DNA from: Larkinella rosea
Lineage (GTDB): Bacteria; Bacteroidota; Bacteroidia; Cytophagales; Spirosomataceae
Assembly: GCF_003858635.1 (NCBI RefSeq)
Contig: NZ_RQJO01000009.1
Location: 124,001 to 188,000 of the forward strand
Direction: 5' to 3'
Length of the DNA: 64,000 nt
Made by a program: the position numbers and the translations under genes. This document shows, piece by piece, positions 5,758 through 31,219 of this stretch; the stretch's first letter is position 1; every line of letters starts with the position of its first letter. The notes under the pieces are model-generated. The model saw nothing but the letters and a program-made list of their open reading frames with translations. It was not told the DNA's origin and made no database searches.

Positions 5758-5850
5758 CCCTGATAAACTCTGCTTTTCCCTGATAAACCCTGTGTAATAC
5801 TTATTGGCTGTTACACAGGGTTTATCAGGGAAAATCAGCGTTTATCAGAG
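5758..5850. repeat. Long intergenic inverted repeat (element a)
   Basis: Two 40-base arms (5758-5797 and 5811-5850) that pair with only a few mismatches around a 13-base loop. The core 24 bases of each arm (5774-5797 and 5811-5834) are perfectly complementary. Each arm contains the unit ccctgataaac twice. The element starts on the first base after the upstream stop codon and ends 7 bases before the next ATG, so it is the whole intergenic region. In RNA it would be a very stable hairpin between two co-directional genes. Confidence 0.9.
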
Positions 5851-5857
5851 AAAAATT

Positions 5858-6601
5858 ATGAAAGCATTACTGATAACAGCGGTTTTATGGGTAGGCCTGA
5901 TGGCGGCTGAGGCCCCGCAGGCTCCTAATACGTTGACTGCGAAGGAGAAAAAAGAAGGCTGGAAACTGCTTTTCGACGGAAAAACCTCTAAAGGCTGGCG
6001 GGGCGCTTACAAGGATAATTTCCCCGAAAAAGGCTGGCTGATCGAAGACGGTTCGCTGGTCATTTCAAAGACGGATGGTTCCGAATCGACGCACTACGGT
6101 GACATTGTAACCGACGGCGAATACAGCGATTTTGACCTGACATTTGACTTCAAACTGACCGAAGGTGCCAACAGCGGTTTGAAGTATTTTGTGGTGGAGG
6201 AATCTCCCAAGCCCAAAGGATCGGCTTATGGTCTGGAGTTTCAGGTACTGGACGATGACAAACATCCGGATGCAAAACTGGGCCGCAACGGAAACCGCAC
6301 CGTGGGTTCGCTCTACGACCTGATTCCGGCAAAAGACAAAAAAGCTAACCCGATCGGTCAGTGGAACACCGGGCGCGTGGTATCGAAAGGCACGCACGTC
6401 GAGCACTGGCTGAACGGTAAGAAAGTCGTTGAATACGAGCGGGGTAGCGAAGCATTCCGGAATGAAGTTGCTCAAAGCAAATACAAAGCTCCGTCGTATA
6501 ATGCCCACGGCCGGTTCGGCGAAGCCCCCAAAGGCCACATTCTGTTACAGGATCACGGTGACCGGGTTTCATTCCGGAATATGAAGATTAAAACGCTGTA
6601 G
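5858..6601 (+). CDS. DUF1080 / 3-keto-disaccharide hydrolase family protein
   Basis: Concanavalin-like beta-sandwich protein of the DUF1080 family (Pfam name 3-keto-disaccharide hydrolase), some members of which cleave 3-oxo-glycosides in periplasmic oxidation-elimination routes. Hallmarks are the N-terminal GWKLLFDGKTSKGWRG, the mid-protein ANSGLKYFVVEE, GLEFQVLDDDKHPD and GSLYDLIPA, and the C-terminal ILLQDHGDRVSFRNMKIK. The N-terminus MKALLITAVLWVGLMAAEA is a plausible signal peptide. The ATG at 5858 is chosen; a longer frame from 5804 would run through inverted repeat a and lack a signal peptide at its start. 247 residues, normal for the family. Flanked by long inverted repeats on both sides. 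Confidence 0.93.
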   Translation: MKALLITAVLWVGLMAAEAPQAPNTLTAKEKKEGWKLLFDGKTSKGWRGAYKDNFPEKGWLIEDGSLVISKTDGSESTHYGDIVTDGEYSDFDLTFDFKLTEGANSGLKYFVVEESPKPKGSAYGLEFQVLDDDKHPDAKLGRNGNRTVGSLYDLIPAKDKKANPIGQWNTGRVVSKGTHVEHWLNGKKVVEYERGSEAFRNEVAQSKYKAPSYNAHGRFGEAPKGHILLQDHGDRVSFRNMKIKTL

Positions 6602-6693
6602 GTTTACGGTTTTCAGTTTGTGGTTTACGGTGGCTGACGCGAGCTAACTAGAATGCGTCAGCCACCGTAAACCATAAACTGAAAACCGTAAAC
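6602..6693. repeat. Long intergenic inverted repeat (element b)
   Basis: Two 39-base arms (6602-6640 and 6655-6693) complementary at 38 of 39 positions around a 14-base loop. The left arm holds the unit gtttacggt twice (6602-6610, 6623-6631). It begins on the base after the DUF1080 stop codon. Its sequence is unrelated to element a, though the architecture is the same. Confidence 0.92.
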
Positions 6694-6710
6694 TATTTTA
6701 CAGTATACTT

Positions 6711-6747
6711 CTGACAAATAAATCTTTCAATACTAGTCTTTTGTCAG
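6711..6747. promoter_or_regulatory. Short inverted repeat upstream of Gfo/Idh/MocA gene
   Basis: The 8-base arms ctgacaaa (6711-6718) and tttgtcag (6740-6747) enclose 21 AT-rich bases, 41 bases before the next start codon. It could be an operator or a weak promoter region; no TAnnTTTG box is clear here. Confidence 0.3.
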
Positions 6748-6788
6748 CATTCAGACGTATTCTATTTATCATTTAAACGACCAGCCGC

Positions 6789-8138
6789 ATGGAAAATCGT
6801 CGCGACTTTATAAAGAAATCTGCTCTGGCGGGACTCGGAATGAGTTTCTCAGCCGCCAGTTATGCCCGCATTCTCGGCTCTGCCGACCGCGTTCGGGTCG
6901 GTATTGTTGGTTTCTCAGACCGCTTTCGGGGTGCTTTGGCCCCCAGTTTTGCTGGCCACGCCAAAGAACTCAACTTCGAATTCGTGGCGGTTTCCGACAT
7001 CTGGAGCCGTCGGCGCGACGAAGCGCAGGCGTACCTCAAGGGAAAAGGATTTATCAGCGGTGACAATTTTGTCAAATGCCGCAACAACGACGAGCTTTAC
7101 GACCGCAAGGATGTCGACGCCGTGATCATCAGTACGGCGGATTTTCAGCACGCCCTGCACTGTGCGGAGGCTGTTGACGCCGGACGCGATGTGTACGTCG
7201 AAAAACCGTTTGCCGAATCGCTGGAAGATGCCCGCAAGGCGCTGAAAGCCGTTGAAAAAAGCAAGAAAATTGTGCAGGTGGGTTCACAGCGCCGGAGCAC
7301 GCCAAACTACTGGGCTGCCAATGAATACATCAAATCCGGCAAATTTGGTGACATCACCATGGTGGAAATGACCTGGAATGTCAACCAGCCGGGGCGCTGG
7401 CGCCGGGCCAAACTCGTTTCCGAAATCCGGAAAGAAGACACCGACTGGAAACGGTATTTGATGAACCGCCCGATGGTGGAATGGGATCCGCGTAAGTATT
7501 TGGAATTCCGTCTGTTCTATCCCTATTCATCCGGTATTCCGGGCCAGTGGATGTCACACCAGATCGATACCGTACACTGGTTCAGTGGCTTTGATCATCC
7601 ACGCAGTGTGGTGGCCAATGGTGGTATTTATGTCTGGAAAGACGGTCGTGTAAACCCCGATACGTTCACGGCGGTTTTCGATTATGGCCCGGATGACGAC
7701 AAAAGCAAGGGTTTTCAGGTGCTGTATAGCTCACGGATGAACAACGAAGCGGGCGGAACCAAAGAATTGTACTACTCGAACGGTGGTATGATCAACCTGG
7801 ATACCAACAAAATTAGCCCGGAAGGTGGTCTGGAAGCCAAAGCTGCGGCTGAAATGGGCATGAAACCCAATTTGCTGGTGGCACAGTCGCTGGCAACAAC
7901 CGGTGAAAAACAGGTGACTTCGGCCAATACCGGCGCTGACCCGATGACTTCGGCGCACATGCGGAACTGGATGGAGTGCGTTCGCAGCCGGAAAGAACCG
8001 AATGCACCGGCCAAAGTCGGCTATAATCACTCCGTTGCCAGCATCATGTCGACTATTGCGTACCAAACCGGTGAGCGGGTGACGTTTGATAACTCCAAAC
8101 AGGAAATCCTGGCGAGCGGGAAAACCGTAAAAGTCTAA
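6789..8138 (+). CDS. Tat-exported Gfo/Idh/MocA-family NAD(P)-dependent oxidoreductase
   Basis: Oxidoreductase of the glucose-fructose oxidoreductase/inositol dehydrogenase family, which oxidises or reduces sugar hydroxyls with a tightly bound nicotinamide cofactor. The N-terminus ENRRDFIKKSALAGLGM is a twin-arginine signal, so the enzyme is probably folded with its cofactor and exported to the periplasm. The Rossmann part begins at RVRVGIVGF; the family motif EKPF is at residues 138-141 (Glu138-Lys139-Pro140). The C-terminal half has the usual alpha/beta substrate domain ending in HMRNWMECVRSRKEPNAP. 449 residues, typical for the exported subgroup. With DUF1080 and DUF6807 next door it fits oxidation of glycosides at C3, which is inference. 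Confidence 0.93.
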   Translation: MENRRDFIKKSALAGLGMSFSAASYARILGSADRVRVGIVGFSDRFRGALAPSFAGHAKELNFEFVAVSDIWSRRRDEAQAYLKGKGFISGDNFVKCRNNDELYDRKDVDAVIISTADFQHALHCAEAVDAGRDVYVEKPFAESLEDARKALKAVEKSKKIVQVGSQRRSTPNYWAANEYIKSGKFGDITMVEMTWNVNQPGRWRRAKLVSEIRKEDTDWKRYLMNRPMVEWDPRKYLEFRLFYPYSSGIPGQWMSHQIDTVHWFSGFDHPRSVVANGGIYVWKDGRVNPDTFTAVFDYGPDDDKSKGFQVLYSSRMNNEAGGTKELYYSNGGMINLDTNKISPEGGLEAKAAAEMGMKPNLLVAQSLATTGEKQVTSANTGADPMTSAHMRNWMECVRSRKEPNAPAKVGYNHSVASIMSTIAYQTGERVTFDNSKQEILASGKTVKV

Positions 8139-8157
8139 TTTTGATTGAATTTTGATA

Positions 8158-8237
8158 GGAACGCGGATTAGACGGATTGAACAGATTTGAACGGATTTAT
8201 CAGTTTTAATCTGTTCAATCCGACTAATCCGCGTTCC
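8158..8237. repeat. Long intergenic inverted repeat (element c)
   Basis: Two 30-base arms (8158-8187 and 8208-8237) complementary at 29 of 30 positions, with a 20-base loop that continues the same low-complexity pattern. The hexamer cggatt recurs at 8164, 8173 and 8192. It lies 20 bases after the oxidoreductase stop and 19 bases before the next ATG. It resembles elements a and b in architecture but not in sequence. Confidence 0.92.
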
Positions 8238-8256
8238 CATAAATAGCCACCTGAAA

Positions 8257-9285
8257 ATGAAAAAACTAACTTTTGCCTTCTGCCTGCTGGCGTTTGGTGC
8301 GATGGCTCAGAAGCAGTCCGTTCAGTTGATCAACAATACCGCGCAGAAACGCGTGGATGTGACAATCGACGGAAAACCGTTTACTTCCTACATTTATCCG
8401 GGGCCGGATGTGCTGAAAAAACCGGTGCTGTACCCCATCCGGACGGCGGGTGGAAATTTCATTACCCGTGGCTGGCCGATGGATCCCCGGCCGGGTGAAC
8501 GCGTCGATCACCCGCACCACGTCGGCATGTGGCTGAATTACGGCGACGTAAACGGCCACGATTTCTGGAATAATTCCAACGATGTCAAAGGCCACGGCGG
8601 CCCGTTTGGTACGATCGTTCACACCGCCATCAAGTCTCTGAAAAGTGGGAAAGACGTGGGCGAACTGGTCGTTACGGCTGATTGGCTGGATAAAGACGGC
8701 AAACCGATGTTGCAGGAAACAACCACGTTTGTTTTTCGGGGGACGGCTAAAGACCGCACCATCGACCGGACTACAACGTTGAAAGCGCTGGACAAAGACG
8801 TGACGTTCAAGGACAACAAAGAAGGCATGGTCGCCATTCGGCTGGCTCGCCAGCTGGAACATCCGTCCAACAAACCGGAGGTATTCACGGATGCCAGCGG
8901 AGTGGCTACCAAAGTGTCGCAAATGGACAATACGGGCGTTACCGGTAAATACAAAAGCAGCGAAGGCATTGAAGGCGAAAAAGTGTGGGGCACCCGCGCC
9001 AAATGGATGAACCTGACGGGCGTCATCAACGGCGAGACCGTTTCGGTGGCGCTTATCGATAACCCGAAAAACATTGGTTACCCAACCTACTGGCACTCGC
9101 GGGGGTATGGGTTGTATGCCGCCAATCCATTGGCACCCAGCATCATGAGCGAAGGCAAAGACAAACCGATGAACTACGTGCTGCCTGCCGGGAAATCCGT
9201 CACGTTCAAATACGAGGTATTGATTACATCAGGTGCCGTTTCCGATGAGGTACTAAGCCAGAAAGTCAATCAGCTAGCCAATTAA
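8257..9285 (+). CDS. DUF6807 (PmoA-like) family exported protein
   Basis: Exported beta-sandwich protein of the DUF6807 family (annotated PmoA family in many genomes, with no link to methane oxidation). The signal peptide is MKKLTFAFCLLAFGAMAQ. Family signatures are YIYPGPDVLKKPVLYPI, a His-rich DHPHHVGMWLNYGDVNG, and a Trp/Gly-rich C-terminal part with GYPTYWHSRGYGLYAANPL. The His cluster suggests a metal or sugar site, but no reaction is firmly known for this subgroup. 342 residues. In Bacteroidota these genes recur next to DUF1080 and Gfo/Idh/MocA genes, so a role in the same glycoside pathway is likely. Confidence 0.88.
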   Translation: MKKLTFAFCLLAFGAMAQKQSVQLINNTAQKRVDVTIDGKPFTSYIYPGPDVLKKPVLYPIRTAGGNFITRGWPMDPRPGERVDHPHHVGMWLNYGDVNGHDFWNNSNDVKGHGGPFGTIVHTAIKSLKSGKDVGELVVTADWLDKDGKPMLQETTTFVFRGTAKDRTIDRTTTLKALDKDVTFKDNKEGMVAIRLARQLEHPSNKPEVFTDASGVATKVSQMDNTGVTGKYKSSEGIEGEKVWGTRAKWMNLTGVINGETVSVALIDNPKNIGYPTYWHSRGYGLYAANPLAPSIMSEGKDKPMNYVLPAGKSVTFKYEVLITSGAVSDEVLSQKVNQLAN

Positions 9286-9437
9286 ACCACTAAAACGGTA
9301 ACGAGGCATAGTAATTGCCTGCGCCCTTTTTGTGTAACCAATTTGGCTCGCTATAAATACACTTGATTGGTGTTAGTTTGGCACTGGTTACTCCTTAAAC
9401 CGTATACTAATCGAGTTGTTGCTAAAAGTCACTTCTT

Positions 9438-9469
9438 GCCATCTGCTCCGTCAGATGGCTTTTTTTTTG
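9438..9469 (+). terminator. Intrinsic terminator downstream of DUF6807 gene
   Basis: A perfect 8-bp stem (gccatctg pairing with cagatggc, 9438-9445 and 9452-9459) and a 6-base loop, followed by an uninterrupted run of about ten T. This is a textbook rho-independent terminator in the + direction, about 150 bases after the DUF6807 stop and before the next gene. Confidence 0.88.
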
Positions 9470-9518
9470 ACTATTGTCTGTGTGAGAATAACCCAAATCA
9501 CATTATAAGACAATCAGA

Positions 9519-9950
9519 ATGGAATCATTACAACAACTGCTTGACTCGTACATGAATACGTACCGAGCCATTATGTGGCGAATGAAAGACGGAAACGTAG
9601 ACAGCCGGGGTTTGAGCGAAACCGTCCGTTTAACCGAAAACACCATTCGTCTGCGCCGTCAGAAGCCGGAGCTTTGGCGGGTCAGCGAAGTTCGGTTACT
9701 GGCGGAGTACTTTGGTTTGCCCGAAAATACCTGCGTCCGGCTGGAAAAACAGCTCGTACCTTTTATGAAAAAGGCCCTGCAAATGCCTCCCGCCAAACGT
9801 CGACGCCTGGAGCAGGCGACTCAGTTGCGGTTGCGTCGAATGTCGGCCAACAAGAGCATGGACTGGCCGGTTGAGGATATCGAAAAGTTGAGAAAAGGGT
9901 TACAACTCTTTGAGTCCGACGAGCGCACCGGAATGGTTCCTGGTTTTTAA
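9519..9950 (+). CDS. Small basic protein of unknown function, possible helix-turn-helix
   Basis: 143-residue protein I do not recognise. It is rich in Arg and Leu. The middle part, LSETVRLTENTIRLRRQKP followed by VSEVRLLAEYFGLPENTC, reads like two helices of an XRE-type helix-turn-helix (a 'choose locus, then recognise' pattern with LAEYFGLP), which would suit a DNA-binding or phage-repressor-like role, but this is weak. The C-terminal part is a charged helix (PPAKRRRLEQATQLRLRRM). No signal peptide or membrane segment. It converges with another unknown gene 12 bases away. An internal ATG at 9552 is an alternative start. Confidence 0.65.
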   Translation: MESLQQLLDSYMNTYRAIMWRMKDGNVDSRGLSETVRLTENTIRLRRQKPELWRVSEVRLLAEYFGLPENTCVRLEKQLVPFMKKALQMPPAKRRRLEQATQLRLRRMSANKSMDWPVEDIEKLRKGLQLFESDERTGMVPGF

Positions 9951-9962
9951 CGCAGGTTGCCG

Positions 9963-10364
9963 CTAGTTCAGGTACAAACCGGAGGGTGCTTTATAGGAAA
10001 TCCGGTTTCGTTTCACGTTGATCCACAGGCGAAAATCCGGGCTATTGAGTCCCATTTTACCCAATTCATCGTCGATTTGCCGAAGCAGAAAATTCAGCTG
10101 ATGAATCATCAGCCACTGTCGCCTGACCTGTTGTTTCAATTGGGAAGGGGATTTGATGGCTGATGTTTCGTCCATCAGCCGCCGAACCGTAGCGCGCAAA
10201 TGGTATTGGATAACGACCAGACGCCCAGCCAGGGCATGATCAGACGGATGTTTTTCCAGAAATGAAATGCCATCGGTCAGAAGCTGGTTACGGCCCTGTA
10301 GGTGATGAGTCACGGTGATCCAGGCCTGATCAGCTTTGATCGACTCGTAGGACACGGTTTTCAT
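9963..10364 (-). CDS. Hypothetical helical protein
   Basis: 133-residue soluble protein without signal peptide or recognisable domain. It looks largely alpha-helical, with basic helices (HLRATVRRLMDETSAIKS, LKQQVRRQWLMIHQLNFLL) and a short C-terminal strand-like tail. A match to the Bacteroidota -7 box TAnnTTTG (10403-10410, reverse strand) lies about 38 bases upstream of the ATG, which supports it being a real, independently transcribed gene. It converges with the preceding unknown gene. Confidence 0.6.
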   Translation of the reverse strand: MKTVSYESIKADQAWITVTHHLQGRNQLLTDGISFLEKHPSDHALAGRLVVIQYHLRATVRRLMDETSAIKSPSQLKQQVRRQWLMIHQLNFLLRQIDDELGKMGLNSPDFRLWINVKRNRISYKAPSGLYLN

Positions 10365-10402
10365 AATAGTAGGTTATTTTCAAGTTTTCGGTACGGTTAT
10401 CC

Positions 10403-10410
10403 CAAAAATA
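10403..10410 (-). promoter_or_regulatory. Promoter -7 box for hypothetical gene 9963-10364
   Basis: Reverse-strand TATTTTTG matches the Bacteroidota -7 consensus TAnnTTTG exactly, 38 bases before the start codon. No clear TTTG box is present at the -33 position, so the call rests on one element. Confidence 0.45.
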
Positions 10411-10550
10411 GTAAAATAATCCAAATAAGCTACAGGTATTTATTGCTAAGTAAAGAATTTTAGTTGGTGGTAATTTGAGGGTGGAACAACTGCTTTCTTT
10501 TCGCTGAATTTGTGGATATTTGTCAATTCCTACACTTTCTTCGAATCTTT

Positions 10551-11243
10551 ATGAATTCTGCCATTCGGGCGCTTATCGTCTGCACCAACCATACGGAATA
10601 CAAAACCAAATCGGAAAAAACCGGACTGTGGTTAAGCGAGGCTACGCACTTTTATGATGAATTATCAGACAATGAATTGCCGTATGACATCGTCAGTCCG
10701 AAAGGAGGGAAGGTACCGATCGACGAGCGTAGCTTGAAACGGAAAGACAACACGAACGATAAATGGTACCACAATCCGGAGTTTAGGGCGAAACTGGAGA
10801 ACTCGCTCAAACCGGAGGAAATAACCCCGTCCGATTACCAGTTAATCTACTTCACCGGCGGGCACGGAACGATGTGGGATTTCCCGGATAATGAACGACT
10901 GCAGGCAATAACCCGACAGATATACGAAAGCGGTGGAATGGTTGCTGCGGTTTGTCACGGCGTAGGCGGTTTGTTGAAAACCAGGCTTTCAGACGGTAGC
11001 CTGCTGATTGAAAACCGGCAGATAACGGGCTTCGCCAACATCGAAGAAAAGCTCCTCGGATTAACGGACGAAGTGCCTTTTTTGCTGGAAGATGAACTTC
11101 GGAAACAAAAAGCGGTGTATCGGAAAAGTATCATTCCATTTCTCCCGTTTATTGAGGTGGACGAACGGCTGGTGACGGGGCAAAATCCGTTATCGGCCCG
11201 GAAGGTCGGCAAAAAAGTGATGGAAGAAATGTTTGAGAAATAG
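10551..11243 (+). CDS. DJ-1/PfpI family protein (Hsp31-like class I glutamine amidotransferase fold)
   Basis: Soluble alpha/beta protein of the DJ-1/PfpI superfamily, whose Hsp31-like members act as glyoxalases, deglycases or chaperones. The nucleophile elbow is AAVCHGVGGLL, with the conserved Cys followed by His; the family's FTGGHGTMWDFPDN motif precedes it, and the C-terminal segment ITGFANIEE and VTGQNPLSA complete the Hsp31-type pattern. The ATG at 10551 gives 230 residues; an upstream GTG at 10512 in the same frame adds 13 residues with no family support. It ends one base from the stop codon of the convergent CpsB-like gene, with no visible terminator between them. Confidence 0.88.
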   Translation: MNSAIRALIVCTNHTEYKTKSEKTGLWLSEATHFYDELSDNELPYDIVSPKGGKVPIDERSLKRKDNTNDKWYHNPEFRAKLENSLKPEEITPSDYQLIYFTGGHGTMWDFPDNERLQAITRQIYESGGMVAAVCHGVGGLLKTRLSDGSLLIENRQITGFANIEEKLLGLTDEVPFLLEDELRKQKAVYRKSIIPFLPFIEVDERLVTGQNPLSARKVGKKVMEEMFEK

Positions 11244-11244
11244 A

Positions 11245-12015
11245 CTAAATCAGTGTATTATTTAACAAACCTCCGTCAATAACCTTCTGATAATAGGGAA
11301 GTTTTCGGGCCTGCTTGATGGCGGGCAACTGCGTTTCGTGGTAAATATCCGTTCCGACAAACGAAACCAGCCGCTGATCGATCATCCATTCGGCCAGATT
11401 GCGGGCTTCCCGAGACGGTTGACCGGATAAGGAAAGCAAGTTCAGCTGGAACTTAACCCCTTGGTAATGAAGATCACGAAGGGCTTCCGGATTTTTTTGC
11501 AGGTAAATATATTGCTCCGGGTGGGCCATAACCGGCACCAGATTGCGCTCCTGCAGTGCCGTAATCACTTTATCCAGTTCAAATGGTCGCTTTACCAGAC
11601 TTGTGTCAAACAGCAGATACTTCTCCGTAGTACCCTGCCCGAAGGTTAGTAATTCGGTTTTGGAATATAAAATTCGCAGCAGATTGATGTCAACAAAATA
11701 TTCGGCGGCTACGTCGATGTCGATATTGATCTTCAATTTCTGCAATTCGTACTTCAACAACGTAGCGGCTGCAAATATGCTATCATGGGTGTTTTGATAG
11801 AAACCATCCATGATGTGGAGGGTGGCAATTACCTTTCGAAATCCCAGCGCCGAAAGCTCACGAAGAAGACTAATGCTGTGTTCGACCGAATCGGCTCCGT
11901 CCTGACTGCCGGGTAGCAATTGGGCATGAACGTCGACACGCAACTCGGAAGCCGCAGCCGGTGAATCGGACTTAGCGGTTTTGGTGCGGGAACGTGTCAG
12001 AAAACCGAAATGCAT
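11245..12015 (-). CDS. CpsB/YwqE-like PHP-domain protein with altered metal ligands
   Basis: Relative of CpsB/YwqE manganese-dependent tyrosine phosphatases, which regulate capsule or exopolysaccharide export by dephosphorylating BY-kinases. The PHP order is visible: DVHAQLLPGSQDGADS near residue 30, ATLHIMDGFY at 67, AAEYFVD at 105, VMAHPEQY at 165 and VGTDIYHE at 223. Compared with the family pattern (HxH, TPH, HPER, GSDxH) three expected residues are changed: second His of HxH to Gln32, Arg to Gln168, and the last-motif His to Tyr225. His30, His67, Glu105, His165 and Asp223 remain. It may bind fewer metals or be a pseudoenzyme. rmlC lies upstream on the same strand, consistent with surface polysaccharide. 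Confidence 0.85.
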   Translation of the reverse strand: MHFGFLTRSRTKTAKSDSPAAASELRVDVHAQLLPGSQDGADSVEHSISLLRELSALGFRKVIATLHIMDGFYQNTHDSIFAAATLLKYELQKLKINIDIDVAAEYFVDINLLRILYSKTELLTFGQGTTEKYLLFDTSLVKRPFELDKVITALQERNLVPVMAHPEQYIYLQKNPEALRDLHYQGVKFQLNLLSLSGQPSREARNLAEWMIDQRLVSFVGTDIYHETQLPAIKQARKLPYYQKVIDGGLLNNTLI

Positions 12016-12062
12016 TGTTCTGTTTAACGAAAGATGTTACGGAGGTTGAGCCGGGCTAAAAA

Positions 12063-12117
12063 GTTTGGCACGGCATCGTGGATATCTCTGTTTAATGGAC
12101 ATGAATCGTGCCAAAAC
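12063..12117. promoter_or_regulatory. Inverted repeat upstream of CpsB-like gene
   Basis: Arms tttggcacg and cgtgccaaa (9 bp perfect, about 12 with one bulge; 12063-12072 and 12107-12117) flank a 34-base spacer in the 5' region of the CpsB-like gene. It could be an operator pair or a leader hairpin; no promoter box is clear beside it. Confidence 0.3.
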
Positions 12118-12154
12118 TACTCTTGTGGGATGTAACTTCTCCGGAACAAGGCAC

Positions 12155-12182
12155 AAAAAAACCGCTTTCGAAAGCGGTTTTT
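12155..12182 (-). terminator. Bidirectional terminator-like hairpin after rmlC
   Basis: A perfect palindrome with core accgctttcgaaagcggt flanked by A-runs on one side and T-runs on the other, so it can stop transcription in both directions. It lies about 30 bases past the rmlC stop codon. Confidence 0.8.
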
Positions 12183-12213
12183 GAAAAAATTTATCAGACG
12201 GCTGAATCCAGAC

Positions 12214-12750
12214 TTATTGCGGATACAGTTCGCGAAACCGGGATAACTGCTGATCTTTATCAGACACGGTTGGATTGTCGACACCCCAGTTGATATTCAG
12301 ATCCGGATCATTCCAGATAATGCCTGACTCGCACGACTTATTGTAGACGTTGGTGCATTTGTAACTAAAAATACTGTCTTCCAGGGCTACAAAACCGTGG
12401 GCAAATCCTTCCGGAATGTACGCCATGTTACTCAGCTCGGAGTCGAGAATAAAGGATTCATATTTTCCGAATGTCGGCGAGCCGACGCGCAGGTCTACGG
12501 CAATGTCCAGCACTTTTCCGGTAATGACCCGAACCAGCTTTCCCTGGGCAAAGGGGGCGTTCTGGAAATGCAGTCCGCGCAAAACGCCTTTTGTTGAAAA
12601 CGACTGATTATCCTGCACAAAATGAGCGGGCAATCCCAATCCCTGAAAAACCGGTTGATTGTATGTCTCCAGAAAACTTCCCCGGGAGTCTTTAAATGTC
12701 TGAGGGCGTAGTTCGATCAGCCCTTCGATCGACGTTTTGATAACCTGCAT
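12214..12750 (-). CDS. rmlC: dTDP-4-dehydrorhamnose 3,5-epimerase
   Basis: Cytoplasmic cupin enzyme that epimerises C3 and C5 of dTDP-4-keto-6-deoxyglucose on the way to dTDP-L-rhamnose for surface polysaccharides. Family features are DSRGSFLETYN near residue 21, the catalytic-His region VLRGLHFQ (His61), DIAVDLRVGSPTFGKY, and IPEGFAHGFVAL. 178 residues, normal length. The ATG at 12750 begins MQVIKTSIEG as in other RmlC proteins; the longer frame from 12789 is rejected because a promoter -7 box at 12797-12804 would place the transcript start right there. The rest of the rhamnose genes (rmlA, B, D) are not in the window. Diverges from pyrF. Confidence 0.94.
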   Translation of the reverse strand: MQVIKTSIEGLIELRPQTFKDSRGSFLETYNQPVFQGLGLPAHFVQDNQSFSTKGVLRGLHFQNAPFAQGKLVRVITGKVLDIAVDLRVGSPTFGKYESFILDSELSNMAYIPEGFAHGFVALEDSIFSYKCTNVYNKSCESGIIWNDPDLNINWGVDNPTVSDKDQQLSRFRELYPQ

Positions 12751-12796
12751 GAAATACGTAGTGGCCTGATAAACCGGTTTGTCCGGCATCAGCGGA

Positions 12797-12804
12797 CAAA
12801 TTTA
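12797..12804 (-). promoter_or_regulatory. Promoter -7 box for rmlC
   Basis: Reverse-strand TAAATTTG matches TAnnTTTG. The predicted transcript start near 12790 leaves about 40 bases of leader before the ATG at 12750. The same bases (12801-12804) serve as the -33 region of the pyrF promoter on the other strand. Confidence 0.55.
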
Positions 12805-12833
12805 GGAAACTCTATCTACTTCCAGTAATTTTG
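12801..12833 (+). promoter_or_regulatory. Promoter for pyrF
   Basis: TTTA at 12801-12804 and TAATTTTG (matching TAnnTTTG) at 12826-12833 are separated by 21 bases, as in Bacteroidota housekeeping promoters. The start codon follows about 55 bases downstream. Confidence 0.6.
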
Positions 12834-12888
12834 GGGCGCACCTTTTTAAGGAATCCCAAGTAATTTAACATTCGAAGACGAGGAAGCA

Positions 12889-13701
12889 ATGACGGCTAAG
12901 GAGTTGTACCATACTATTTTAAGTAAAAAATCCTATTTGTGTGTGGGCCTGGATACCGATATTCGTCGAATACCGGCGCATCTCCGGGCTGAGCCGGATC
13001 CGGTGGCGGCTTTTAACCGCCAAATCATCGAAGCCACTGCGGAATATGCTGTAGCCTATAAACCCAACATTGCCTTTTACGAAGCGCAGGGGCCGCGCGG
13101 CTGGGAAAGTCTGCAACGAACGCTGGAGTACATTCCTAAAAATTGCTTTACCATTGCCGATGCCAAGCGGGGCGATATTGGCAACACCTCCGGCTTATAC
13201 GCCCGTACGTTTTTTGATCCGGCTTCGTCCGGTCTGGAGTTCGATTCGGTAACCGTAGCGCCTTACATGGGCCGGGACTCCGTCGAGCCTTTTCTCGAAT
13301 TTGCGGATAAGTGGGTGATTTTGCTGGCCCTGACTTCCAACGCCGGAAGCTCCGACTTCCAGCAGTTGCCGGTTTCGGACGAAAAGCTCTACGAAAAAGT
13401 GATCCGTACATCGCAGACCTGGGCGGGGGCCGACCGGATGATGTACGTGGTGGGCGCCACCCGCGCCGACGAACTGGCCCACATCCGGACGATTATTCCC
13501 GATCATTTTCTGCTGGTCCCGGGCGTGGGCGCGCAGGGCGGCAGCCTGGCCGAAGTTTCGCGCTACGGGTTGAATAGCCAATGCGGTTTGCTGGTCAACG
13601 CATCGCGCAGCATCCTGTATGCCTCCGGCAACACCGATTTTGCCCTGCGAGCCGCCGACGAAGCCCGAACCTTGCAACAGGAAATGGCGAGCTTTCTTTG
13701 A
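12889..13701 (+). CDS. pyrF: Orotidine 5'-phosphate decarboxylase (type 2, long form)
   Basis: Last enzyme of UMP biosynthesis, decarboxylating OMP to UMP in the cytosol. The TIM-barrel motifs are clear: [12 protein letters not shown] near residue 20, [15 protein letters not shown], the catalytic Lys-Asp block [15 protein letters not shown], and [12 protein letters not shown] at the phosphate-binding end. 270 residues is the size of the longer PyrF subfamily found in Bacteroidota and Actinobacteria rather than the 230-residue E. coli type. It has its own promoter 55 bases upstream, divergent from rmlC. Downstream an imperfect inverted repeat fills the gap to a DUF2851 gene. Confidence 0.96.
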
Positions 13702-13801
13702 ATGATGCGTGATGAATTAAGAGTTAAGGATGAAGAAGTAGATGGGAAGTGTGACTTTTTCCTGCTTTTCACTTCTAATTCATAACTCATCATTCATCAC
13801 T
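13702..13801. repeat. Decayed long inverted repeat (element d)
   Basis: The 100 bases between the pyrF stop and the DUF2851 start form an imperfect palindrome: the left part (repeats of tgatg and gaattaagag) reads roughly as the reverse complement of the right part (ttcacttctaattcataa, then catcattcatca), at about 70 percent by eye. Like elements a-c and e it starts directly after a stop codon and ends a few bases before the next start. It looks like an older copy of the same architecture. Confidence 0.6.
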
Positions 13802-15113: not shown

Positions 15114-15114
15114 G

Positions 15115-23339: not shown

Positions 23340-23356
23340 TTTGATTAAATACTGAT

Positions 23357-23640: not shown

Positions 23641-23644
23641 TTGA

Positions 23645-25423: not shown

Positions 25424-25442
25424 ACCTTTTTACCCAGCAAAA

Positions 25443-26045
25443 ATGAAAAAACTGCTTTTTATCCTGACCGTAGGCGTTGTAGCTGTAACATTATCCAGCT
25501 TTATGTCCGTCAAAACCATTGTCAACATGTTGGCGCGCGATAATAGCGCAGCGGCAGTTGCCCCAACCAAAAAATTGTACGATTTTACGATGACCTCCAT
25601 TGAGGGAAAAACCGTGCCTCTGAAACAGTACAGAGGTAAAAAAGTGGTCATTCTGAACACCGCTTCGAAGTGTGGTTATACCAAGCAGTTTGCTGATTGG
25701 GAAACATTTTACAAGGAACACGGCGATAAAGTTGTCGTTTTGGGTTTCCCTTCCAACAACTTCAAGAGCCAGGATCCGGGTACGAACGCCGAAATTGCTG
25801 AGTTTTGCAAAAAGAATTATGGTGTATCGTTCCCGATGTTCGAGAAAATCGAAGTGATTGGCGAAAATCAGGCTCCGCTATACAAGTGGCTGTCAGACAA
25901 ACAGTTGAATGGTGGCGTAAACGACCAGGTTCCGAGCTGGAATTTCTGTAAATACGTGATCAACGAAAAAGGCGAACTGGTCGCTTTCTTCCCATCCAAA
26001 GTGTTACCAACCGACGCTGAATTCAAAGCAGCCGTTGGAATTTAA
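25443..26045 (+). CDS. Glutathione peroxidase-family thiol peroxidase, exported
   Basis: Cys-type GPx-like peroxidase that reduces hydroperoxides, probably with thioredoxin rather than glutathione as donor. The peroxidatic Cys77 is in NTASKCGYTKQF; the catalytic Gln/Trp-Asn region is recognisable as KSQDPG and VPSWNFCKYVI. The usual FPCNQF is FPSNNF here, and a Cys in AEFCKKNYGV may be the resolving residue. The start MKKLLFILTVGVVAVTLSSF is a signal or anchor sequence, so it likely works in the periplasm. The ATG at 25443 is used; the longer TTG frame overlaps argS. 200 residues. Inverted repeat e separates it from menA. Confidence 0.92.
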   Translation: MKKLLFILTVGVVAVTLSSFMSVKTIVNMLARDNSAAAVAPTKKLYDFTMTSIEGKTVPLKQYRGKKVVILNTASKCGYTKQFADWETFYKEHGDKVVVLGFPSNNFKSQDPGTNAEIAEFCKKNYGVSFPMFEKIEVIGENQAPLYKWLSDKQLNGGVNDQVPSWNFCKYVINEKGELVAFFPSKVLPTDAEFKAAVGI

Positions 26046-26050
26046 TTACT

Positions 26051-26121
26051 AATGAACAATGAATAATGAATAATGAAAACCGGTGCGATTCCTTTTCATT
26101 GTTCATTATTCATTGTTCATT
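26051..26121. repeat. Long intergenic inverted repeat (element e)
   Basis: Two 29-base arms (26051-26079, 26093-26121) complementary at 28 of 29 positions around a 13-base loop. The arms are runs of the unit aatgaa with variants (aatgaac, aatgaat). It begins 5 bases after the peroxidase stop; further aatgaaa-type sequence continues on both sides of the menA start codon at 26135. Confidence 0.92.
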
Positions 26122-26134
26122 TTTCATTCGAAAA

Positions 26135-27028
26135 ATGAAAAGTTGGCTTGCGGCTGCCCGGCCGCGTACTTTACCGCTGTCTTTGGCCAGCATCATTCTG
26201 GGTAGTTTTTTGGCTTCATCGACAGGCCAGTTTAGCTGGACGATCTTCGTTCTGGCTTCTCTCACCACGATTTTTCTGCAAATCCTCTCCAATTTTGCCA
26301 ATGATTACGGCGATGCGGTTTCGGGGAAAGATACTGCCGAGCGCGTTGGCCCTCGCCGGGCCGTTGCCACCGGCTTGATCACCAAAGAATCCATGTTTCG
26401 CGCCATCATCTTGATGTCGGTGCTGGCGTTGATTTCCGGTATCTGGCTACTGGTTGAGGCATTGAAAGAGGCCCCCTCAGCCTATTTCTGGATTTTTATG
26501 GGGCTGGGCGTTTTGTGCATTGGAGCCGCCATCGCCTATACCAATGGGAAACATCCGTATGGCTATAGCGGTTTTGGTGACCTTGCCGTACTGCTCTTTT
26601 TTGGTTGGACGGGCGTTCTGGGAACCTACTTCCTGCATACGCTATCGTTCGAACCGCTACTCCTTTTACCGGCTACCAGTGTGGGTTTTCTGGCAACGGG
26701 TGTACTGAATATCAACAACATCCGCGATATTGAAACCGATGCCAAAACCGGGAAAGTCTCCATTCCGGTACGACTGGGCCGCGAGCGCGCTATTCGCTAC
26801 CACTGGCTTTTGTTACTGGGCGGAATGATTTGCGCCGTTGGCTACACCCTGATTATTGGTCACAACTGGTTTAGCTGGCTCTACCTGCTCGCTTTTCCCC
26901 TGTTCGTATTGAACGGTCGGGCGGTTGCCAACCACCAGAAACCAGGGGAGTTGAACCCGCGACTGGGCCAACTGGCCTTGTCGACGCTGCTCTTTGTCGT
27001 GCTGTGGGGCGTGGCGATGGTCATCTGA
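26135..27028 (+). CDS. menA: 1,4-dihydroxy-2-naphthoate polyprenyltransferase
   Basis: Integral membrane UbiA-family enzyme that attaches the polyprenyl tail to 1,4-dihydroxy-2-naphthoate, giving demethylmenaquinone. Start MKSWLAAARPRTLPLSLA matches other MenA proteins, and the Asp-rich prenyl-diphosphate motif NFANDYGDAVSGKDT is clear, with the second motif NNIRDIETDAKTGK later. About nine membrane segments fill 297 residues. ATG 26135 is chosen; the longer frame from 26066 would translate inverted repeat e. Indicates menaquinone-based respiration. Confidence 0.95.
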   Translation: MKSWLAAARPRTLPLSLASIILGSFLASSTGQFSWTIFVLASLTTIFLQILSNFANDYGDAVSGKDTAERVGPRRAVATGLITKESMFRAIILMSVLALISGIWLLVEALKEAPSAYFWIFMGLGVLCIGAAIAYTNGKHPYGYSGFGDLAVLLFFGWTGVLGTYFLHTLSFEPLLLLPATSVGFLATGVLNINNIRDIETDAKTGKVSIPVRLGRERAIRYHWLLLLGGMICAVGYTLIIGHNWFSWLYLLAFPLFVLNGRAVANHQKPGELNPRLGQLALSTLLFVVLWGVAMVI

Positions 27029-27060
27029 AAACCGTATTCTTTCAGTAACTTTCTCAGAAA

Positions 27061-27771
27061 ATGAAAACCATCGGTATCATTGGCGGCATGACCTGGGAAA
27101 GCTCAGCAGTCTACTATCGAGTTATCAATCAGGAAATCGGGCGACGATTAGGTGGTCATCATTCGGCGAAACTGGTGATGGCAAGTGCTGATTTTGAGGA
27201 TTATACGATCTGGCAAAAAGCCGATGACTGGGCATCTATCGAAAAAGCCGTCGATGCGCTGGCGCAAAGCCTTGTTCGGGCCGGAGCCGATTGCGTGGTC
27301 ATTGCCTGCAACACCCAACATGAAGTGGCCGAGGGCGTTACCGAACGGTTGTCTGTGCCGCTTCTGCACATTACCGATGTAACCGCCGAAGCCATTCAGA
27401 TAGCCGGTTTTCGGAAAGTGGGGTTACTCGGAACCCGCTTCACGATGGAGCGCTCGTTTTTTCGCGGGCGGTTGAAAAACCGTTATGGGATTGATGTCAT
27501 TCTGCCCGATGAGGAGGAACAGGCATACGTTCACCAGAAAATCTACGAAGAATTCAGCAGGGGAATTTTCAGTGAAAGTACCCGAAACCGCTTTGTTGCC
27601 ATTATTGAAAAACTGGCGGAGCAGGGGGCCGAAGGCGTTATTCTGGGCTGTACTGAAATCCCGCTGCTGGTTCAGGCCGAACATACCACCGTTCCGTTGT
27701 TTGATACCACGACTCTGCACGCGATGGCTGCCGTCGAATTCAGTCTGGAAACCAGCCCGGCTGTGGACTAA
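27061..27771 (+). CDS. Aspartate/glutamate racemase family protein
   Basis: Cofactor-independent racemase of the Asp/Glu/hydantoin family, likely making D-aspartate or acting on a related amino acid. The N-terminal IGIIGGMTWESSAVYYR is the aspartate-racemase signature. The two catalytic cysteines are Cys83 in VVIACNTQHE and Cys197 in VILGCTEIPLL. 236 residues, cytosolic. The gene follows menA by about 30 bases on the same strand and could be co-transcribed. Confidence 0.92.
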   Translation: MKTIGIIGGMTWESSAVYYRVINQEIGRRLGGHHSAKLVMASADFEDYTIWQKADDWASIEKAVDALAQSLVRAGADCVVIACNTQHEVAEGVTERLSVPLLHITDVTAEAIQIAGFRKVGLLGTRFTMERSFFRGRLKNRYGIDVILPDEEEQAYVHQKIYEEFSRGIFSESTRNRFVAIIEKLAEQGAEGVILGCTEIPLLVQAEHTTVPLFDTTTLHAMAAVEFSLETSPAVD

Positions 27772-27857
27772 ATTTGGCGTTCGATAAATACTTTACAAAA
27801 TAGGCTCATCTGAGCATTAGTTTTAAACAATCCCACCCTGCCGGTGTTTATTTTGGT

Positions 27858-27910
27858 AAGATGGTGGGTGAGTGTGACGTATGGAATGTGCAGGATGTGC
27901 CCACCATCTT
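27858..27910 (+). promoter_or_regulatory. Hairpin between racemase gene and GH9 gene
   Basis: Perfect 11-bp arms aagatggtggg and cccaccatctt (27858-27868, 27900-27910) with a 31-base loop. A TATTTTG box just upstream, one base short of TAnnTTTG, could be the GH9 promoter, which would put this hairpin in the GH9 5' leader. Alternatively it ends the racemase transcript, though no T-run follows. Confidence 0.4.
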
Positions 27911-27999
27911 CTCTTTCAGATTCTTGATACTAGTAATTGTCAGACACTAATGGTATTATTGTAGTAAGGTATGTTTCTATCTTTTACTGCAATAATGCT

Positions 28000-30900
28000 A
28001 TGAAAAACCGGTTTACCCGTCTGGCCAATTCGGCAGCGACATTTTATCGCTTCTTCTGTTGTTGCTTCATATTCAGCTTGCTGTACCTTTCTCTTCCGGT
28101 TAAAGCCCAAACCCTCAGCAAACAAATCATCGTCGATCAGTTTGGCTGGCGCGCTAATGCGAAAAAGATCATTGTTTTCTCCGATCCAATTAACGGACAG
28201 AACGGGAGCATTGGTTATACGCCAGGAACGCAATTTCAGGTTCGGAAAAAGTCAGACAACAGCGTCGTTTTTACCGGAAATGTGGTGGGCTGGAACAACG
28301 GAAACACCCACGGTGATTCGGGTGATAAAATCTGGCATGGCGATTTTTCCGGCTTGACAACGCCCGGAACCTACTACATCGTTGATCCGACCCGAAACGT
28401 CAAATCGTATGATTTTGAAATCAAAAACGACATTTACGCACCGGTTTTAAAAACGTCGGTCAAGACCTTCTTCTACCAGCGCAGTGGCACCGCCATTTCG
28501 GCCACCCACGGCGGCAACTGGAATCACCCGATGGCCCACGGTCAGGATACGAACGCACTACTTTACACCACTTCGGCCCAAACCGGTACGGCCCGGAATG
28601 TAACCGGCGGCTGGTACGACGCGGGTGATTACAACAAATACATTCCGTTTTTGAGCGGTACGCTCTGGGATTTACTGGTGGCTTACGAATTGCGTCCGGC
28701 GGTTTTTACGGACAATACCGCTATTCCGGAATCGGGCAATGGTATTCCGGATGTGCTCGACGAGCTGAAATGGGAGCTGGATTGGATGCTGAAAATGCAG
28801 CAAAGCAACGGCGGAGTTAATAACCGCGTGGCGGTAACGAGCTACGAAAATGGCACCGACAATCCGGCGACCGACACCCAGCCCCGGTATTATACCAATG
28901 TTACCACCTGGGCAACAGCCACTTTTGCGGCTTTGACCGCTCATGCGGCCCGGACTTATCAGACCGCTAATCCCGCATATGCCACCACGCTTAGGACGGC
29001 TTCTGAAAAAGCCTGGATGTATTTGGAAGCCAACGCGTCGATGAGTCCGGCGTCGGGAACGGACGGAGCGGCCCTAGCCGCTGCTGATGCCGGAGCCAAT
29101 ACCAACGCCGACAAACGCCTGCGCGTTTACGCGGCTGCCGAGTTGTGGCGCACCACCGGAACGGCTAAATACAAAACATATTTTGAGAGTAATTACAAAA
29201 ATATCAATGCGACCAGTGAGAACGGTTTTCATCCTTTCTCAAACGGCAATCTGGATGCCTCGCTGTGCCTGGATTTGAACCGGGCATATTTTGTGTATTG
29301 TCAAACGCCGAATGCGACATCCTCTATTGTTACCGAGTTAAAAAGCCGTTTCCAGAACGCGATGGACTGGAACATCGAGTCAAATTACGTTAGTAAAAAC
29401 GACCCGTATCTGGGCTTCATGTGGAGCGGTCACTACACCTGGGGTTCCAATCAGTTAAAAATGAAATGGGCTCAAATTGCTATCCTATCGGCCGAATTGG
29501 GCATCAATCCGGCTAAAACCGCTCTCTATAAGGAAATTGCCGAAGAGTACCTGCATTACATGCACGGCCGAAACCCGCTGGCGTGGCTGTATTTGAGCAA
29601 CATGGGCACGAAAGGGGCCAATCTGGGTGGCGACAACAGCGTGATGGAAATTTACCACAGCTGGTATCGCGACGGTTCGGCGAAGTATGACGGCGCTGGT
29701 TCGCAATTTGGCCCGGCACCCGGTTTTGTGGCGGGTGGTGCCAATCAATATTATTCCGGCACAGCGACGCCCCCGAAAGGCGAGCCGCCGATGAAAGCCT
29801 ACCGCGATTGGAATACGGTTTGGCCGGATGCGTCGTGGGAAGTCACGGAACCTGCCATTTATTACCAGGCGGCCTACACGTTTGTGGTGGCTTATTTTTC
29901 CGAAAACGGTGGAACAACTCCACCGACAGTTGCCGCATCGAGCAACAGCCCGGTTTGTGCCGGACAAACGCTGAACCTGCTGGCATCGAACATCGGAACC
30001 GGCGCGACCTATTCCTGGCGTGGGCCGAACGGGTTTACATCCACCCAGCAAAATCCGACAATTCCCAACGCCAATACCACTGCAACCGGTTCGTACACAC
30101 TGACAGCGACGCCATCGGGCGGGACGTCGCAAACCGCGACGACCTCCGTAACCGTCAATGCGATTCCGACGGCGGTGGCGGCTAGCAATAGTCCGGTAGC
30201 AGCCGGTCAAACGCTGAACCTGTCGGCGACAAATGCCGGAACGGGCGCAACGTACAACTGGCGCGGGCCGAATAATTTTACGGCCAACACGCAGAATCCG
30301 TCCATTGTCAACGTGACAACGGCGGCTACCGGATCGTACTCGCTGACGGTGGGGCTCAACTCCTGCACCAAAACCGCCACTACTTCGGTGACAGTAACCG
30401 GTTCATCAGCAATAACTTATTTGATCTACGAAGATGCGCTCAATAGCAATTGGGCCGATTGGTCGTGGAGTACCACCCGGAATTTCAGCAACACAACGCC
30501 GGTTCAAAGCGGTACGAAATCATTGTCGGTGAAATACGATGCGGGCTGGGCCGGGTTGTATCTGCACGCCAATTCTCCGGTGAGTCTGTCGGGATTGACG
30601 CACCTGAAATTCTGGATTCACGGCGGTACCAATACCGGGCAGCAAATTCGCATTATCCTGAATGGGGGAGGACCGTATTATACTGTCACGACAACAGCCA
30701 ATCAGTGGAAGCAAATCACCATTCCGCTTTCGACATTCAATAGCCCAACTTCGGTGTCTGATATTTACTTCCAGGAAGCGACGGGAAGTGCCCGACCGGT
30801 TTGTTATGTGGATAAAATTTACCTGGCCAGTTCGGCTTCGGCGCGGGAAGGAATTGTGATTGAAAATGGAGAAAAAACCGATGTACTGGTTTTCCCAAAT

Positions 30901-31128
30901 CCAGTCACCACTCAGTCGGATGTAACTCTGCGATTTTTGGGTTTTGGCGCTCACGAAACCGTTCAGACGACGCTGACCGATGTTCAGGGACGGCTCATTC
31001 AGGAACAGGCTTTCCAGTTGAATGGAAACGAAAAGCGGTTTTTGCTTCCGAAATTATCCAGCGGCCCGTATTTTATTCAGATTACAGGAGAAAACCGGCA
31101 GTTCGTGAAGAAACTGCTGGTGAAATAA
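28000..31128 (+). CDS. GH9 endoglucanase-like enzyme with Ig-like modules, CBM-like module and T9SS tail
   Basis: Secreted multi-domain glycoside hydrolase family 9 enzyme acting on beta-1,4-glucan or a related polymer. From ATG 28000 (1042 residues): signal peptide ending PVKAQ near residue 37; CelD_N Ig-like domain about 40-140; GH9 (alpha/alpha)6 barrel about 145-630 with Asp207 and Asp210 in GGWYDAGDYNKY, MHGRNPLAWLY, and catalytic acid near Glu617 in VTEPAIYYQ. Two near-identical 80-residue Ig/PKD-like repeats follow (640-800, each with AGQTLNL and GTGATYxWRGPN), then a beta-sandwich CBM-like module (805-945), and a type IX sorting domain from 957 (VLVFPNP to the basic end). So it is secreted across the outer membrane by T9SS. 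Confidence 0.92.
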   Translation: MKNRFTRLANSAATFYRFFCCCFIFSLLYLSLPVKAQTLSKQIIVDQFGWRANAKKIIVFSDPINGQNGSIGYTPGTQFQVRKKSDNSVVFTGNVVGWNNGNTHGDSGDKIWHGDFSGLTTPGTYYIVDPTRNVKSYDFEIKNDIYAPVLKTSVKTFFYQRSGTAISATHGGNWNHPMAHGQDTNALLYTTSAQTGTARNVTGGWYDAGDYNKYIPFLSGTLWDLLVAYELRPAVFTDNTAIPESGNGIPDVLDELKWELDWMLKMQQSNGGVNNRVAVTSYENGTDNPATDTQPRYYTNVTTWATATFAALTAHAARTYQTANPAYATTLRTASEKAWMYLEANASMSPASGTDGAALAAADAGANTNADKRLRVYAAAELWRTTGTAKYKTYFESNYKNINATSENGFHPFSNGNLDASLCLDLNRAYFVYCQTPNATSSIVTELKSRFQNAMDWNIESNYVSKNDPYLGFMWSGHYTWGSNQLKMKWAQIAILSAELGINPAKTALYKEIAEEYLHYMHGRNPLAWLYLSNMGTKGANLGGDNSVMEIYHSWYRDGSAKYDGAGSQFGPAPGFVAGGANQYYSGTATPPKGEPPMKAYRDWNTVWPDASWEVTEPAIYYQAAYTFVVAYFSENGGTTPPTVAASSNSPVCAGQTLNLLASNIGTGATYSWRGPNGFTSTQQNPTIPNANTTATGSYTLTATPSGGTSQTATTSVTVNAIPTAVAASNSPVAAGQTLNLSATNAGTGATYNWRGPNNFTANTQNPSIVNVTTAATGSYSLTVGLNSCTKTATTSVTVTGSSAITYLIYEDALNSNWADWSWSTTRNFSNTTPVQSGTKSLSVKYDAGWAGLYLHANSPVSLSGLTHLKFWIHGGTNTGQQIRIILNGGGPYYTVTTTANQWKQITIPLSTFNSPTSVSDIYFQEATGSARPVCYVDKIYLASSASAREGIVIENGEKTDVLVFPNPVTTQSDVTLRFLGFGAHETVQTTLTDVQGRLIQEQAFQLNGNEKRFLLPKLSSGPYFIQITGENRQFVKKLLVK

Positions 31129-31219
31129 CGTACCCACGGACTTTAGTTCGTGAGATCCTAATAATTCCAAAATTCAAGCTGTAATTGGGATCTTACGGAC
31201 TAAAGTCCGTGGGTACGTT
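31127..31219. repeat. Inverted repeat between convergent GH9 and ileS genes (element f)
   Basis: Arms 31127-31159 and 31187-31219 are complementary at about 30 of 33 positions. The outer 19 bases are perfect and contain cgtacccacggac. Each arm begins within the stop codon of its neighbouring gene, so the element is the whole gap and can act as a bidirectional terminator. One arm also occurs alone at 21488-21507. Confidence 0.9.

Follow-up and report, generated by a model that had tools for sequence, protein, structure and literature searches.

Hairpins behind stop codons in Larkinella are probably rewritten in place by copying from one arm to the other

In a 64,000-nt window of the Larkinella rosea genome (contig NZ_RQJO01000009.1, positions 124,001 to 188,000 of the forward strand; a genome of 8.17 Mb, labelled G000 here), several gaps behind stop codons hold long hairpins with arms made of short tandem units. 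Our comparisons within and between genomes show that these hairpins belong to dispersed families, that their two arms change in concert, that their mismatches carry no wobble bias, that small tracer insertions occur mirrored in both arms, and that one orthologous site contains a half-copy with an inverted loop. We conclude that the arms are probably kept alike by template switching from one arm to the other, with slippage and mutation supplying the changes and the hairpins being rewritten in place. Our best reading is that the near-perfect pairing comes from this copying and not from selection on RNA pairing.

Repeat finding and a separate hairpin detector recovered all five long inverted repeats described in an initial annotation of the window, with arms of 29–39 nt that are 92–97% identical:

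5758–5850, plus strand: hairpin with arms at 5760–5797 and 5811–5848 (38 nt, 95%), units of about 10 nt of the CTGATAAACC type
6602–6693, plus strand: hairpin with 39-nt arms (97%), outer 7-nt units GTTTACG/GTTTTCA
8158–8237, plus strand: hairpin with 30-nt arms (97%), 9-nt units of the CGGATTGAA type
26051–26121, plus strand: hairpin with 29-nt arms (97%), 7-nt units AATGAAC/AATGAAT
31127–31219, no strand: palindrome resembling a repetitive extragenic palindrome (REP), 36-nt arms (92%), ACCCACGGACTTTAGTCCGTGGGTACGTT type, between two convergent genes

As the annotation had claimed, the arms of the first four consist of short imperfect repeats, with units of about 10, 7, 9 and 7 nt; in 6602–6693 a core, GGTGGCTGACGC / GCGTCAGCCACC, flanks the loop inside the outer heptads. 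The fifth, 31127–31219, has a conserved sequence without heptads and is a class apart from the other four. All five start at a stop codon or within about 20 nt of one, 31127–31219 overlapping its stop codon, and folded as RNA they have energies between −36 and −72 kcal/mol, with z of −11 to −17 relative to shuffles. That the elements also end shortly before the next start is true of 5758–5850 (7 nt), 8158–8237 (19 nt) and 26051–26121 (about 13 nt, to a start codon chosen by us), and untrue of 6602–6693 (95 nt) and of 31127–31219 with its convergent genes. The elements are unrelated to one another, as was said of them, but relatives of each are present at many other places in the genome.

Counted by hand from match listings, with the query included, the 5758 element occurs at 16 distinct places in its own genome, the 8158 element at 18, and the 6602, 26044 and 31127 elements at no fewer than 40 each; several places of the 31127 family have exact arms of 24–25 nt. 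In the 6602 family, whose 21 best-scoring copies were compared, the heptads differ from copy to copy in order and in kind, and the core GGTGGCTGACGC/GCGTCAGCCACC is common to most of the 21. Arms of the same locus share a mean identity of 0.92, compared to 0.62 for arms of different loci, and in 19 of the 21 copies the closest arm is the copy's own partner. The core motif follows certain arm words, being present in 17/19 GTTTACG, 7/9 GAGTTAA, 4/14 GATGAAT and 1/5 TAATGAA hairpins, in 1/12 with CCCCTAAA arms and in 2/64 unclassified ones; none was found with CGGATT (14), CTGATAA/CTCTG (12) or ACCCACGGAC (7) arms or in four other classes, and random 50-nt gap windows contain it in 68 of 3941 cases. 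A single REP family for all was rejected for four of the window elements: the elements are mutually unrelated, and the arms vary within the 6602 family. The prospect that everything would reduce to one known family of REPs or miniature inverted-repeat transposable elements (MITEs) falls away because the families are many, although each element is multi-copy and 31127–31219 is REP-like. A conserved palindrome common to all copies, the trait of REPs and of REP doublets forming hairpins (REPINs), is seen in 31127–31219 and not across the window elements as a set. One palindrome of the 31127 type (G000:C12:231832–231903, with orthologues in G003 and G006) is nested inside another, which looks like what is left of an older GTATTCGGT hairpin.

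The tandem structure of the arms was tested in three Larkinella genomes, on 80 arms that are 25 nt or longer. Identity at lag 7 is 0.46, compared to 0.297 in shuffled arms (z 16.2), and lag 14 is also strong (z 12.0), with lags 8 and 10 weak (z 2.4 and 1.9), confirming the internal periodicity that the annotation had proposed to look for. Taken singly, 43 of the 80 arms are periodic at p < 0.05 (period 7 in 27, 8 in 5, 9 in 2, 10 in 8 and 5 in 1). Conversely, 130 of 170 intergenic rows reported by Tandem Repeats Finder with units of 5–12 nt, in 400-kb samples of five genomes, overlap a hairpin, several rows being possible from one hairpin. Solitary arrays in one arm were considered as precursors and rejected: 40 of the 170 rows lie outside hairpins, and following 12 of them gave no clear precursor, a judgement that rests on six, the other six having no orthologous stretch.

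Hairpins were counted in five 400-kb samples, one per Larkinella genome (G000, G004, G003, G006 and G001). The arms had to be 20 nt or longer and 85% or more identical, REP-like and terminator-like hairpins were included, and genes were called simply as the longest open reading frames (ORFs). The 160 found (36, 21, 57, 29 and 17, respectively) lie in tandem gaps (88), convergent gaps (41), divergent gaps (12) and within called ORFs (19). The palindromes are real and well above chance expectation: detection in gaps only gave 118, and dinucleotide-shuffled gaps (five shuffles per genome in the five genomes), a comparison that the initial annotation had named as a possible refutation, gave 0. The nearest upstream stop is within 20 nt of the hairpin start, overlaps included, for 100 of the 129 hairpins in tandem or convergent gaps. 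Per kb of gap there are 1.34 hairpins in convergent, 0.66 in tandem and 0.19 in divergent gaps, the last being depleted (12 against 39 expected by length, p 1.6e-8). In 80-kb samples of other genera we found 7 (G010), 5 (G012), 0 (G011), 0 (G009) and 1 (G016). Two G010 loci (L237 and L239) show palindromes of the CCTTCGACAAGCTCAGG and TCATCCCGACGCAGGAGGGATC types amid the hairpins, beside a few heptad ones. Loss of SbcCD, a nuclease that cuts palindromes, was ruled out as the cause of the abundance: SbcD is above cut-off in 9/9 Larkinella genomes, so the hairpins do not owe their number to the lack of such a nuclease.

At orthologous sites the hairpin often persists while its words change in both arms together. 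The 256 directional comparisons, which like the gap, wobble and paired-change counts below overlap in species and sites and are not independent, gave a similar hairpin in 61, an ambiguous one in 19, one not detectably similar in 100 (a class that mixes diverged relatives with wholly new words) and none in 76; orthologous gaps are thus found empty, different or conserved, the three outcomes that the annotation had wanted told apart. Across 1325 directional comparisons of gaps, the target has a hairpin at a rate of 0.49 if the source has one and 0.10 if it does not, and the former rate is 0.36 with related pairs excluded. Entire units are also cleanly present or absent between species. Around the gene at 6789–8138, nine Larkinella genomes carry a hairpin at the 5758 site in 9/9, at 6602 in 6/9 and at 8158 in 8/9. 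At the 5758 site, seven species have decamer-type arms and a mostly similar loop, and G004 and G008 have wholly different arm words, octamers by eye. Both-side changes in the seven species fall on 13 of 40 pairs and 26 cells, a level reached in 0 of 500 shuffles and compared to at most 9 cells in slid controls. TTATTCG-type words occur in four of the six Larkinella hairpins at 6602, and at 26051 G004 has the same heptads and G003, G006 and G001 have others. At 13699–13796, TGTGACTTTT is present in the loop in both G000 and G004, between arms that differ (the heptads of G004 are other ones), and G003 and G001 carry the loop motif without a detected hairpin. Behind the orthologue of gene 6789–8138, in a tabulation that covers 40 of 80 loci, a hairpin was present at 10 of 11 listed Spirosoma loci, with different words each time; in Dyadobacter there was none at eight of nine listed loci and a weak one at the ninth.

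To distinguish pairing at the DNA level from pairing at the RNA level, we used the mismatches. A stem selected as RNA tolerates G-U, and G-T should then outnumber A-C on the gene strand. Relaxed detection gave 135 tandem-gap hairpins, whose 4301 pairs include 132 G-T and 140 A-C mismatches, a share of 0.485 (95% interval 0.43–0.54); the strict set of 88 hairpins has 34 and 45, and the heptad part 53 and 52. A control of 89 short terminator-like hairpins has 42 and 18 (binomial p 0.0027), and the long tandem-gap hairpins differ from it (Fisher test, p 0.0027). As the excess is absent here and present in the control, complementarity seems to be maintained in DNA and not in RNA. In orthologous long hairpins, 620 of 734 base pairs are unchanged, 43 have changed on both sides to another Watson-Crick pair (20 of them of transversion type), 64 on one side (19 G-T, 20 A-C and 25 other) and seven otherwise.

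The clearest case of copying comes from a single site in two genomes, L273 in G003 and L286 in G007, whose flanks are identical at 144/150 and 137/150 positions. In G003 the 5′ arm alone carries a 16-nt module (below), and the loop is TGTGTCAGC. In G007 both arms carry the module, and the loop, GCTGACACA, is the reverse complement of the G003 loop. The 3′ half of G007, module and loop included, matches the reverse complement of the G003 5′ half at 57/60 positions and the G003 3′ half at only 32/60. The 5′ half of G007 resembles that of G003 at 49/60 positions, and the reverse complement of the G003 3′ half at 35/55. A template switch of about 60 nt accounts for the 3′ half of G007, and independent changes do not. 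Copying is shown at this one site, and the mirrored modules elsewhere strongly suggest it.

The module, a GC-rich 16-mer (CGGGGCCGCCCGNGCG), was found at loci L257–L319 and nowhere in the window; searched as the 19-nt word ACGGRGYCGCCCGNGCGGT, it has 66 occurrences in 8/9 Larkinella genomes, and 0 reversed. In alignments between species, four of 48 insertions of 10–60 nt with good flanks are 16 nt long, and three of the four are this module. Its search pattern required A before and GT after, making these flanks a matter of construction; a search of 2 Mb free of that condition gave A before in 5/5 and GT after in 4/5. When the 16 nt are skipped, the two sides of 68 module junctions are in heptad phase, with an identity of 0.458 at lag 7, compared to 0.25–0.29 at lags 5, 6 and 8–10 and 0.375 at lag 4. 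The 63 module loci represent 62 distinct places, orthologous ones included (L263 and L302 coincide), and the module is mirrored in the other arm at eight of the 62, being mostly one-armed. Of the 54 loci without a partner, 29 gain 4 or more in hairpin score when the module is omitted, two lose score and 23 stay much the same. No target duplication was seen at the insertions. The module may be a mobile DNA of very small size, with an insertion point that is apparently A/GT. It also occurs in the centre of a REP (L266) and, by eye, in reading frames that resemble insertion-sequence transposases (L262, L280 and L300).

A second module, GGTTCCCCGCCGGGAC, has 24 matches in 6/9 genomes (L321–L328; G003:C13:659144–660169). 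In all loci read but L320, its position within the GTTTACG hairpin core does not vary. The arms were compared at 11 of its 21 places: in ten hairpins it is in both arms at five and in one arm at five, and the eleventh place lies outside a hairpin by eye. At the 8158 site, again by eye, both arms of the G003 hairpin contain a 16-nt insert, the equivalent of which is in one arm in G007; at another site of the 16-nt module, orthologous by eye from its common flank, both arms are marked in G003 (L274) and G002 (L310) and one in G007 (L288).

These data suggest the following scheme. During DNA synthesis, a strand would now and then switch template inside the palindrome, by snapping back on itself or by jumping to the complementary strand, and one arm, sometimes together with the loop, would be rebuilt in reverse complement from the other. 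Where arms consist of 7-nt (also 8–10-nt) tandem units, they would vary by mutation and by slippage of units, and a change in one arm would then be written into the other. The hairpin would stay behind the same stop codon as its letters drift between 'families' within one genus. Replication is the presumed setting of the switch, and slippage the presumed source of unit turnover. The position behind stops most likely reflects tolerance outside coding and promoter DNA, of which little is available at other places, and perhaps a mild insulating effect or a mild role at 3′ ends. The initial annotation had envisaged a common process by which short repeats between genes become hairpins; this is well supported by the 130 of 170 arrays in hairpins, with the kinship of partner arms in 19 of 21 copies and with the half-hairpin copying event.

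Several observations weigh against arm-to-arm copying. Changes on one side exceed those on both (64 against 43), so copying is not immediate. Terminator-like hairpins are coupled as well, with 18 double changes, 0 single and one other, in a class named by a rough rule that also caught a few heptad hairpins; coupling alone therefore cannot single out the mechanism. The G003 and G007 5′ halves agree at only 49/60 positions, which means that more than one change separates the two genomes, and the direction of the change between them is one that we infer from the pair without polarisation by an outgroup. Among 71 orthologous pairs a scan for inverted loops gave 0 strong cases, compared to four loops strongly alike in the same sense, and loop inversion was rejected as a general pattern; in 68 pairs scanned for half-copies the margins were small and no second clear case appeared. 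At the 5758 site, 37 of 500 shuffles attained the observed value of 'further pair types', one of the five measures used. Template switching also leaves the dozens of copies per arm family unexplained, and the dense hairpins are limited to some of the sampled genera, without an enzyme tied to them.

A more specific proposal, which we offer only tentatively, is that Larkinella and its relatives rewrite hairpins in place continuously, tandem-unit arms and template switching jointly making the intergenic hairpin a structure that copies itself, and that CGGGGCCGCCCGNGCG is a separate, very small mobile DNA, which would enter one arm (apparently at A/GT) and be copied by the hairpin to the other.

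Selection at the RNA level would take the hairpins for 3′-end terminators or exonuclease barriers and the paired changes for compensatory mutations. It accords with the start of 100 of the 129 tandem or convergent hairpins within 20 nt of a stop, the depletion of divergent gaps (12 against 39), the strong RNA folds and the persistence of hairpins at orthologous gaps (0.49 against 0.10), but the wobble excess that marks the terminator-like control is absent here, and transversion-type doubles are common (20/43). Point compensation cannot yield mirrored 16-nt inserts or a 60-nt half-copy, and a T-run is lacking behind three window elements out of five: by eye there is none after 5850, 8237 or 31219, TATTTTA follows 6693, and five T lie across the end at 26121. 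We consider this explanation unlikely, and the proposal that the elements had been selected as RNA processing or termination signals finds no support at the RNA level, with no wobble excess, although a position after the stop would suit it.

Non-autonomous mobile elements of the REPIN or MITE kind would insert after stops and displace each other, mobilised by a transposase such as Y1 (RAYT). The dispersed family of every window element and the clean presence or absence of whole units between species speak for them. Matches to Y1_Tnp were obtained in 18 of 19 genomes searched (17 above cut-off), and 31127–31219 resembles a classical REP. However, it is the core and not the arms that is conserved in the 6602 family, 24 empty-site comparisons revealed no target duplication by eye, and the series of words and the kept loop at one site favour change in place. 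The clear Y1_Tnp (RAYT-like) gene of G000 (L114, G000:C11:866232), the one locus read, is flanked by AGGGCGATGCCC-type palindromes that by eye are not of the window families. Mobility of this kind is improbable as the explanation. Selection on DNA structure alone, by a cruciform-binding protein or a need of supercoiling, with arms that mutate independently, would fit the equal G-T and A-C mismatches but is highly implausible, since mirrored 16-nt inserts and the half-copy require copying and it gives no reason for tandem heptads in the arms.

Beside the five elements, the window contains three further hairpins:

13699–13796, plus strand: imperfect hairpin, 29-nt arms (83%)
60899–61040, plus strand: degraded long hairpin with ATGGTT-type words
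63172–63218, no strand: ordinary intrinsic-terminator-like hairpin with A/T ends, a contrast case

The first two had been described as decayed copies. The first is orthologous to a better hairpin in G004, and the second has a fold that fits a degraded hairpin, at moderate strength only (z −3.9 against its own shuffles, of which 1/200 folded equally well). The window has 0 Rfam matches at gathering score. Single hairpins were compared with two collections: 6602–6693 has no match among the plasmids and 26044–26128 none among the phages. Ten neighbouring proteins were scanned and all are ordinary, with domains of a xylose isomerase-like barrel, 3-keto-disaccharide hydrolase, Gfo/Idh oxidoreductase, DUF6807, orotidine decarboxylase, DUF2851, glutathione peroxidase, UbiA, glycosyl hydrolase 9 and class I tRNA synthetase. 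At 33950–34018 there is a purine-rich imperfect inverted repeat (27-nt arms, 78%) within a long minus-strand ORF bearing tRNA synthetase domains.

Paired changes in a stem are usually taken as evidence for a functional RNA; here they seem to come from DNA copying, which can mislead searches based on covariation in genomes of this kind. The wobble test and the tracer distinguish the two in a class of element that is frequent in these bacteria. The hairpins also offer many natural sites for measuring template switching, some in bacteria that are in culture, and a case of fast sequence replacement with the structure left in place.

We compared the hairpins with known systems. Many exceed the limits given for a survey of bacterial inverted repeats, with arms of 6–30 bp, spacers of at most 10 bp and at most one mismatch (PMC10434271). 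The palindromes of Nematomorpha mitochondria are likewise numerous long inverted repeats, perfect in that case, but lie inside coding genes, and the abstract of that paper mentions no heptads (PMC6649704). Closer in their units are the TAACTGA heptamer arrays described by MacGregor 2015 (PMC4679880) in the intergenic DNA of bacteria including Bacteroidetes and Cyanobacteria; heptanucleotides are there said, citing Mrazek 2007, to be the commonest such repeats in most genomes, with polymerase slippage as a possible cause. Both systems have 7-nt tandem units between genes, but the TAACTGA arrays, as portrayed there, are direct, of one word and, in a Beggiatoaceae genome, mostly before starts. 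The Larkinella heptads are of many words, mirrored into hairpins and behind stop codons.

REPs, REPINs and palindromes tagged GTAG/CGTC are characterised as short, dispersed and intergenic (PMC3116915, PMC3733652), and 31127–31219 fits this type. The other four window elements differ in their variable arms, longer stems and tandem units. Elhai reportedly described, in 2008, small dispersed repeats of cyanobacteria that are very small modules of 21–27 nt inside other repeats. The 16-nt module also sits inside other repeats and is shorter than that range; repeats of the cyanobacterial kind are named SDR in PMC3116915. Searches of the open-licence PubMed Central literature turned up no account of bacterial tandem-unit hairpins whose sequence is rewritten in place. 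The nearest system is quasipalindrome template switching, reported to create and maintain RNA hairpins (Monttinen and Loytynoja 2022, PMC8794818), in which one arm likewise templates the other, paired changes span several bases and the inter-strand form is expected to invert the loop. The cases set out in that paper are histories of rRNA and microRNA with mostly short stems, whereas the arms here are of 20–60 nt, often tandem-repeat, at many bacterial sites and with a 16-nt tracer. The Larkinella hairpins share with that system arms that change in concert without wobble bias and, at one orthologous site, a half that is the reverse complement of the other.

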